Source: Nelumbo lutea (taxonomy: Eukaryota; Streptophyta; Magnoliopsida; Proteales; Nelumbonaceae). From it: 64,000 bases of DNA. The stretch is taken from assembly GCA_022828595.1 (NCBI GenBank), contig JAKGHH010000007.1, forward strand, positions 35,216,356-35,280,355, in the 5' to 3' direction. Below the pieces are notes generated by a model, which saw only the letters and a list, made by a program, of their open reading frames with translations, was not told the origin of the DNA and made no database searches. The translations under genes and the position numbers were made by a program. Below are positions 30,401-33,112 of this stretch, piece by piece (within the stretch, counting starts at the first letter, position 1; the number at the start of each line of letters is the position of its first letter).

Positions 30401-33112
30401 TTTTTTGACATTTTAGTGTACAGTCCAACATCTAGTGGATTTGCAGATTACTCCAGATATTCTCTTTTAAAATCAGTTTTATGCCAAAGAATCGAAATGT
30501 TCTTTTGGGCAAACCCATGTACTCTATTTGGGCCATGTAGTGGAAGACAGAATGGTATTAGCAGATCCAGACAAAGTATCTACTATTCGACAGTGGCCAG
30601 CCCCAAGTAACATCAAGGAGCTCCGGGCTTTCCTAGGACTGACGGGTTACTACTGTCATTTCATTAAAAACTATGGTTTAATCGCAGCCCCACTGACAGC
30701 TCTACTGAAGAAGGACTCCTTTCTTTGGACTGACAAGGCCCAGGCCGCATTTGAAGCCTTAAGAGCATTTGTGTCATCCCCACCAACCTTGACTTTACCT
30801 GATTTCAACAAGCCCTTTGTGGTTGAGTGTGACACTTTGGGCCTGGGAGTGGGGGCAGTGTTGGTGCAAGGACAGCCCCTTGCTTTCTTTAGAAAGGCCT
30901 TGTCTCTCACTCAAGATTACTCTTCCGTCTACAACTGGGAATTGATGGTGGTAGTGTTATCTGTTCAGCATTGGCATTCTTACCTATTGGGCCATAAGTT
31001 CGTGATCAGGACTGACCACCAAAGCTTGAAGTTCCTTTTGGAACAACATGTCCTCTCTCAGGACCAGCAGCATTGGGTTTCAAAGCTAATGGGCTTCAAC
31101 TACGCTATTGAATATCAACCAGGCGCAACAAATCAGGTCACAAATGCTCTGTCACATCAGCCCAAACCAGTAGTTGCTAGCTGTTAGTGAAGGGGTATTT
31201 CCATAGATCCAATGGAAGTCCTCCGAAGTCGAGCAAACACCTCCTCTAAGAATGGAAGGGCTGATCCTCCTAGTATTTGGGCTCGTACTGGTTCATACTC
31301 GGATTTCAGCCCCACCAGAAACCGAGTCACATCAAGTTGCTCCCTCTGTTGTTGTTGAATCTTGACATCAAGAGTGAGAGGATGATAGACATTCAACTCA
31401 TTACGGATGTTTCTCATACCAGCATAGTACTCCTCAAGACTCTGATTGCCCTATTGCAGATTGAATTATTCCTGATACAGTTAATATGCCCTGGTTGTAT
31501 TGTCCTGACCAGAATACAATTTCTTAGCATGATCCCACACCTCTTTGGCCGTGTCAAGAAACATGAAGTTCACACTAATTCTGGGTTCCCTACTGTTCCA
31601 TAACCACGTGATGATTTGTGCGTCTTTTTGTTCCTAGTCTTCGTATTCATGAGAAGTAGTTGAGGGTTTCTCCTCTCTTATGTGCTTCACCTTCTTCTTT
31701 GCCTTCAGAAAAACCTCTACAGACTTAGTCCAAGGGACATACTTCTCCCCATTCAGTTTAATGGAAGTCATTTGGACATTCAGGTGGTCAAAAGATATCA
31801 TCACATTAGGTTTACTATCACTGTTATCTCCCATTGTTGAATTCTTTTATCACTGAATTCTGCACACTACACACTGCACACTGCACACAGACATTTCACT
31901 GAATTCTGCACACTAGTTTCAGCAATAATAAGTGTGGAAAGTTGCACTTGTAACACCACAGATCCTACTCTACATCTACCTGAAGTTTCACCACTATGTG
32001 AACACCACTGCCCTTCGAATCACACACAAACCAGCATAAACCCTAGCACACTACAACCTGAAACCCCTCCATACGATCTGTACCATACCGCTTATGCGCT
32101 TCATAACAGAAATTATGCATAAAAGAAACTCCTTACCTCATCGCCTGAAGGACAACCACACGAAGAAAGAAAACACCCACTGCACCACACGTACCAGCCC
32201 TACATTAATTAGGGGAGGGCTGAGAAAACACAGCAACCGACCACACACGACAAACCTAGGTCGAATGCGCAGAAGACAGAATTCTAGGCAAGTCCGATTT
32301 GTTTAATTTGGTTATGATACCATGTTAAAGTTCGGCCTGCCCTAGAAGTCTGTTTGTCGGTTAGCAGTTAAGTAAAGCAAGCAAGCAAGAAGAAGGAAGA
32401 AAGAGGAAGAAAGAGAGAAAAGGTCTGGTTCGAAATTAGGAAAAAATCGAACCCTACTTTTGGCCAGACCTGTTATTATATTATTAATGTGATAGGAAAA
32501 GACATCAGTGCCCTTATTTAAGTAAGAGGCACTCGAACTAACATAATAAAACAACTCAGCAATCTCAACAGGTACAAAGACCGAAATACCCCTTCACTAA
32601 CACTAGCCTACTTCAGTTGCACATGTTCCAGCAACCCACTACAGACAGTGTTGTGGTACCAATTACGAGATGAGGTGGCCAATAGTAAGGAACTTCAGTT
32701 AATCAAGGAGCAATTACTTCGGAACCCAGATTCCAAACCTGGATGTTCAGTCTGTTCTGTACTATAAAGGTATAGTGCTGTTTCCAAATGCCAACGGATT
32801 CAGCCCTCTTGGGCCCATCACTGGATTAGTTTCATGCGACACCTTTGGGCAGCTATTCAGGAGTTCTGCACACATATAAGAGGGTGTCTTCGCAATTTTA
32901 TTGGAGGGGTATGCTAAATTCCATAAGTAAATACATCTCCATGTGTCATGTTTGTCAACAGTGTGCCTACTGTATCTTAGCACTGTATGGAGGTGTTCCC
33001 TCAACACCTCTCTAGGTTGTATTTGCTTTTTCCTTTATAATAAATTTCCATTTTACTTGTCAAAAAAAAAGAAGTTTGTCAGCAGTGCAAGTATGAGGTG
33101 TTCCCTCAACAC

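Follow-up and report, generated by a model that had tools for sequence, protein, structure and literature searches.

The question raised by this locus is how a retrotransposon insertion can carry the U3 end of its LTR at both outer edges, when complete, two-LTR elements have U3 at one edge and U5 at the other. The window (the whole 64-kb stretch of DNA that was analysed, C7:35216356-35280355) was read directly, and the genome (843.66 Mb, 63 contigs) was searched for relatives of the element and of its target.

Element F, on the minus strand of the window (31182-32602), is a 1421-bp piece of a Ty1/Copia retrotransposon (Table 1). As the initial annotation had stated, the 20 bp at 31182-31201 are the exact reverse complement of 32583-32602 (20/20, by direct reading and with a repeat finder), and CTAGC stands on both sides of the element. 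The reading also bears out the layout proposed there, in which both outer edges are U3: on the minus strand the 280-bp LTR is followed by TGGTATCATAACC, the leader, the 5' part of gag and, at the far end, the inverted 20-bp U3 tip. F has a single LTR and lacks both pol and a 3' LTR; a BLAST comparison found no second copy of the LTR in the 64-kb window, only the 20-bp tip and short low-complexity matches. The LTR starts with TG, ends with CA and is adjoined by the primer-binding site, and the target-site duplication is 5 bp long, as in Ty1/Copia elements. The primer-binding site of F presumably matches the initiator Met-tRNA; in the relatives it reads TGGTATCAGAGCC, and TGGTATCAAAGCC in L003. 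The gag of F, with its four stops entered as X, matches the profile PF14223 (E 3.5e-8) and is thus of the Copia type, and a protein search with it returned four matches, two of them named, both from Nelumbo nucifera, with 70 and 72% identity. No match was obtained in viral contigs (searched with the gag peptide and with the U3 tip), in plasmids and prokaryotic genomes, or in Rfam at the gathering cut-offs, and no tRNA genes were found in the window. The Ty3/gypsy-type frame in which F lies is broken by it, and the final codons of this frame extend into the insertion. Elsewhere in the window, diverged repeats, most of them 72-79% alike and present in both orientations, are densely arrayed at 60229-63911 and 49817-50864, and three related stretches (6558-8501, 50864-52823 and 58424-60238) are 83-93% alike; two of the three adjoin the diverged arrays.

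Table 1. Features of element F and of its target, in positions of the window.
Feature	Position	Strand	Remark
Target: Ty3/gypsy-type open frame, RNase H domain (PF17917)	30471..31187	+	profile match
Left copy of the target-site duplication, CTAGC	31177..31181	.	single site in 14 paralogous targets
U3 tip TGTTAGTGAAGGGGTATTTC, 20 bp, inverted with respect to the LTR; left outer end of F	31182..31201	+	
TTTC microhomology, 4 nt, U3 / antisense gag, at the seam	31198..31201	.	comparison with relatives
Copia-type gag, 5' part, four in-frame stops, cut after ...RTSIGSM	31202..31834	-	
Untranslated leader, primer-binding site to gag; ~96 bp shorter than in most relatives	31835..32309	-	
Primer-binding site TGGTATCATAACC	32310..32322	-	
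Complete LTR, 280 bp; its U3 end forms the right outer edge of F	32323..32602	-	
Right copy of the target-site duplication, CTAGC	32603..32607	.	

The family copies in the host genome give the reference for the ends of F (the first search scored 40 of 3425 candidates, so their list is a lower bound). Of the 27 rows of relatives, 24 contain the start TGTTAGTGAAGG, a few of them with one or two altered bases. In three of the five relatives for which the 3' part was fetched (L009, L011 and L013), the 3' LTR begins at TGTTAGTGAAGG directly after the polypurine tract CTTGAGGGGGAG; this start was not found in the other two (L010 and L012). Reading of both ends was tried on 15 relatives, two of which (L003 and L007) showed no 3' LTR within the fetched stretch. 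All the 13 readable relatives are bounded by U3 at the left edge and by U5 at the right, so the normal relatives that the initial annotation had suggested looking for are present. An exact 5-bp duplication flanks ten of the 13 and is absent in L004, L032 and L038 (for L032, four of the five bases agree if one end mutation is allowed). In the relative L009 the rve domain (42-443) precedes RVT_2 (1631-2044), i.e. the integrase comes before the reverse transcriptase, which is the Copia order. The relatives share the start TGTTAGTGAAGG and have unrelated sequence before it, so the boundaries of F can be taken as genuine family boundaries. F shows 25 private substitutions at 1402 compared sites (1.8%), and the values for the 24 aligned relatives are 0.65-2.6% in 23 cases and 5.8% in L043, which has a deletion. 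The insertion of F is thus not unusual in age, and at such an age the 20/20 match between its tips needs no special cause. The ~96 bp of leader that F lacks are found in most relatives; the junction of this deletion, near 32251-32254 of the window, shows little homology, and a deletion in the leader of L005 overlaps that of F and differs from it.

The inverted ends were also evaluated for specificity, with a scan that required inverted TG..CA ends (9 bp or longer) 150-12000 bp apart and an exact 5-bp duplication beside them. Over the window and all the loci retrieved at that stage, it returned F alone, in five overlapping records (the window and four loci repeating the same place). Chance is ruled out as the explanation of the inverted ends together with the duplication. 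For the target site, the flanks of F were joined with one CTAGC kept and aligned to 14 Ty3/gypsy paralogues (L015-L028) of the 41 target matches, one of the 41 being the window itself. All 14 paralogues span the insertion site, 13 of them without a gap and L019 with a 2-bp insertion. The paralogues are 74-79% identical to the left flank and share only the final three bases, AGC, of CTAGC. On this alignment, nothing else appears to have been gained or lost at the target. Because ordinary family copies are U3/U5 and the paralogous targets span the empty site, both edges of F look as if they were joined by integrase as U3 ends. The same two observations support the earlier proposal that integrase joined two U3 tips of an aberrant cDNA, and we are confident that F is a real U3-U3 insertion, made by integrase with two like ends. 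In the assembly at hand, neither of the findings that would have spoken against it according to the initial annotation came to light, be it an ordinary two-LTR ancestor or a mis-assembly at 31201/31202.

Several familiar kinds of structure were considered and rejected. A solo LTR, in which the duplication would directly flank a single LTR, does not agree with the primer-binding site, leader and gag that follow the LTR of F. A MITE or other transposase-mobilised DNA transposon bounded by terminal inverted repeats is rejected, as the ends of F are the U3 tip of the family LTR and the seam between gag and the tip occurs once in 843.7 Mb. A search with this seam (29-mer, up to 3 mismatches) matched F itself and nothing else genome-wide, which also rejects a self-amplifying, non-autonomous family with two U3 ends; since the seam occurs only once, F as such has not been amplified. 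Autointegration is rejected on geometry, by reasoning: a U3 end joined into gag would point inward and keep the whole LTR, whereas the 20-bp tip of F points outward.

The seam between gag and the inverted tip carries the information on how the second U3 end was made. At this site the relatives read GGATCTATGGAAAACCCTAATG or a near variant, and F reads GGATCTATGGAAATACCCCTTCACTAACA (at the microhomology, GGATCTATGGAAAACCC... in the relatives and GGATCTATGGAAATACCCC... in F). The exact homology is 4 nt, TTTC, common to U3 and antisense gag; F and U3 share these bases, and the crossover can thus lie anywhere from U3 position 16 to 20. Beyond TTTC, with U3 as the primer, pairing continues through GGGT across one bulged A, with a G-U wobble in addition (5 further pairs). 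This extra pairing lies on the side predicted by priming of the minus strand on gag RNA from a nascent U3 strand 16-20 nt long. For scoring the pairing, four relatives took the place of the parent, and the score was designed after the homology had been noticed; on this post hoc scale, a match as good with U3 as the primer occurs in 49-101 of ~84,000 length-by-position combinations (0.06-0.12%), and one as good as that observed for the reverse polarity, with gag as the primer, in 1.8-2.1%. Duplex prediction for the tip and gag (RNA parameters) gives -9.1 kcal/mol, with the optimum register one base off, where the last C pairs with the first G of GG and one base is unpaired in each strand. A strand extended from the predicted register would fall one base short of F, which itself calls for the bulged, non-optimal register.

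The seam site was inspected in 26 distinct relatives (27 rows, L008 and L047 being the same place), and gag continues past the seam point in 25 of the 26. Among those inspected, the site reads AAAACCC in 8 distinct relatives and AAAGCCC in L002. A CTC variant, for which weaker pairing is expected, is present in L006, which is among the closest relatives, and in nearly all the more distant copies. In L043/L049 (C1:159985500-159994000), a gag deletion of ~335 bp starts at the same CTATGG as the seam of F. This spot in gag may be a general switching spot of the reverse transcriptase.

The best explanation, and one that we consider rather probable, is that F is an abortive product of reverse transcription, i.e. 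an aberrant Copia cDNA with U3 at both ends, started by a nascent U3 strand and inserted once by integrase. The polypurine tract would prime plus-strand DNA, and a short nascent strand made up of the initial 16-20 nt of U3 would leave its template. Its 3' end, ...GGGGTATTTC, would then anneal to the family gag RNA, ...GGAAAACCC..., and prime a minus strand that starts in gag and reaches the primer-binding site. Normal plus-strand strong-stop DNA (U3-R-U5-PBS) would join through the primer-binding site, as in the usual second strand transfer, and completion of both strands would give U3-R-U5-PBS-gag-(inverted U3 tip). Both 5' ends would be fixed by removal of the polypurine primer (the PPT/U3 cut), and integrase would pair the two U3 ends and insert the molecule with the usual 5-bp duplication. 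Mispriming followed by normal second strand transfer predicts exactly F, and a single abnormal step would be needed, namely the priming of minus-strand DNA on gag RNA by a nascent plus strand of 16-20 nt. In favour of this route, the U3 tip of F begins exactly at the PPT/U3 junction of three relatives. Of the two origins that the initial annotation had named for the cDNA, template switching (or mispriming) fits better than self-priming, as the homology at the seam runs on at the U3 side. There is good support for same-end integration; for the priming route, we infer the identity of the primer strand, RNA as the template and the sequence of the steps.

The individual steps have counterparts in the literature. 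In Ty1 and Ty3, according to the accessible part of PMC5371799, one polypurine tract appears to prime repeatedly, with displacement of the plus strands. Short ends are used as well: 18-nt U3 oligonucleotides serve as viral ends in concerted integration assays with the Rous sarcoma virus integrase (PMC10209032, in the portion available), and for HIV-1 the excerpt available of PMC8742673 gives 21 bp of U5 and of U3 as sufficient in vitro. A 2025 review (PMC12789967, available in part) indicates that the Rous sarcoma virus integrase may not treat its two kinds of end alike, with greater stringency for U5 than for U3, and thus acceptance of like ends should not be assumed for every integrase.

Several points count against priming by nascent U3. 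F is a single case, with no second U3-U3 insertion in searches over a few tip lengths; the exact homology is only 4 nt and the score is post hoc; the bulged register is not the predicted duplex optimum. The seam-site sequence varies among the relatives that stand in for the parent, and its CTC variant would pair less well. The same gag spot is, moreover, a deletion breakpoint in L043/L049 and maybe a general switching spot.

The alternatives differ in how they account for the seam. The strongest of them, possible and clearly less probable than priming by nascent U3, is a fold-back or jump of the plus strand, in which synthesis would stop in gag at ...CTATGGAAA and the 3' end would anneal to the TTTC in the U3 plus strand of the same or of another molecule. 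The last U3 bases would then be copied outward, with the same end product. The GAAA/TTTC pairing is present at the seam, and this product would likewise end exactly at the U3 terminus; however, there is no homology on the gag side beyond 4 nt (1.8-2.1%, versus 0.06-0.12% for the U3 primer, both post hoc), and a free plus-strand U3 template would be required, with a hairpin or second molecule to resolve. We consider it improbable that the seam was made by end joining, i.e. that a cDNA end broken in gag and a short U3-tip fragment were joined in the nucleus by microhomology and the product was then integrated. A microhomology of 4 nt at an abnormal junction is in line with this, but a free fragment cut 20 bp from the U3 end would be required, then a second step by integrase, and end joining has no need of the extra homology beyond the crossover. 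Later rearrangement of F, in which the left part of an ordinary two-LTR insertion would have been replaced by its own inverted U3 tip, is unlikely, and we give it very little weight: TGTTA is common to both LTR ends, which makes a replication-template switch at the edge conceivable, but the new end would need to coincide exactly with the edge of the duplication and reproduce the exact U3 terminus, and the target is otherwise undisturbed. Least probable of all is an assembly error that joined an inverted U3 piece at 31201/31202, for although the locus is a nested repeat and was judged on the assembly alone, an error is not expected to produce an exact LTR terminus together with a matching 5-bp duplication and microhomology at the seam.

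Further U3-U3 insertions, a possibility raised by the initial annotation, were not found with tips of about 20 and exactly 16 nt. Genome-wide, the 20-nt tip followed by four non-U3 bases (up to 1 mismatch) occurs only in F and in one ordinary variant 3' LTR, and the exact 16-nt tip followed by four non-U3 bases (0 mismatches) does not occur. These patterns are estimated to catch about three quarters (20 nt) and one third (16 nt) of random seams at those tip lengths and almost none at other lengths. In the titles and abstract openings of the searched literature, which covers subscription papers in part, no genomic LTR insertion with two U3 ends is announced; in a paper on plant tandem LTRs (PMC11899658), wording such as inverted, template-switch, aberrant or head-to-head occurs only in the reference list.

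What surfaced instead is a probable U5-U5 copy, L050 (C8:962125-967851; positions 1-9901 of the fetched locus are C8:962000-971900), a member of the same Copia family with U5 apparently at both outer edges. In the element sense, it consists of an inverted U5 end up to LTR position 142, an inverted part from leader position 339 via the primer-binding site to LTR position 157, and a sense LTR from position 74 onward, which continues into the rest of a long copy up to its 3' LTR. The LTR pieces are 94-96% alike (199/208, 147/154, 202/210 and 136/144 matched bases, apart from 10 gap positions in the third pair and 11 in the last), as expected if they were made together in one event. The jump from the leader to the 3' LTR sits in a shared CGAA(A)CTAGGG, and the repeat that flanks the element is imperfect, reading GAGT at the left edge and GAGTC at the right one. 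L050 is a probable snap-back product with two U5 ends, folded back head to head near the 5' LTR; a head-to-head rearrangement of two copies is the alternative.

With its clean empty site, F documents in a genome that a Copia integrase can integrate a molecule carrying two identical U3 ends, one of which consists of only 20 bp of LTR, and its seam keeps the likely footprint of the priming event. More broadly, and as a doubtful extension, short plus strands from repeated priming at the polypurine tract could act as an alternative primer of the minus strand and give rise to recurrent same-end mini-insertions, with the Copia integrase accepting both U3-U3 and U5-U5 pairs in vivo. Such insertions, if they exist, would resemble DNA transposons with terminal inverted repeats and would be missed by LTR finders. 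If they recur, their tip lengths and seams would reveal errors of reverse transcription and the end requirements of integrases in plant genomes, and a number of elements now taken for terminal-inverted-repeat elements would have to be classified anew.

Compared with the family copies in the same genome (e.g. L002/L051 and L006), F has the LTR, primer-binding site, leader, gag and 5-bp duplication in common, and differs in having U3 at both edges, a single LTR and no pol, whereas those copies have U3 and U5 edges. L050 is like F in that two like LTR ends are outermost in one insertion, and unlike it in the opposite end pair (U5-U5), the fold-back plus jump, and the imperfect flanking repeat. 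The HIV-1 proviruses with asymmetric LTRs have deletions in one LTR, and no U3-U3 provirus is reported in the part of PMC9278108 available to us. The repeated polypurine-tract priming of Ty1 and Ty3 supplies displaced plus strands that start exactly at U3, like the primer proposed here; it is a normal step of replication, and the accessible part of PMC5371799 contains no description of mispriming in gag. A parallel for the last step is the concerted integration of Rous sarcoma virus in vitro, where, in the available portion of PMC10209032, integrase pairs two U3 ends of ~18 nt, as proposed for F; that system employs a retroviral enzyme and synthetic ends, whereas F is a genomic insertion.
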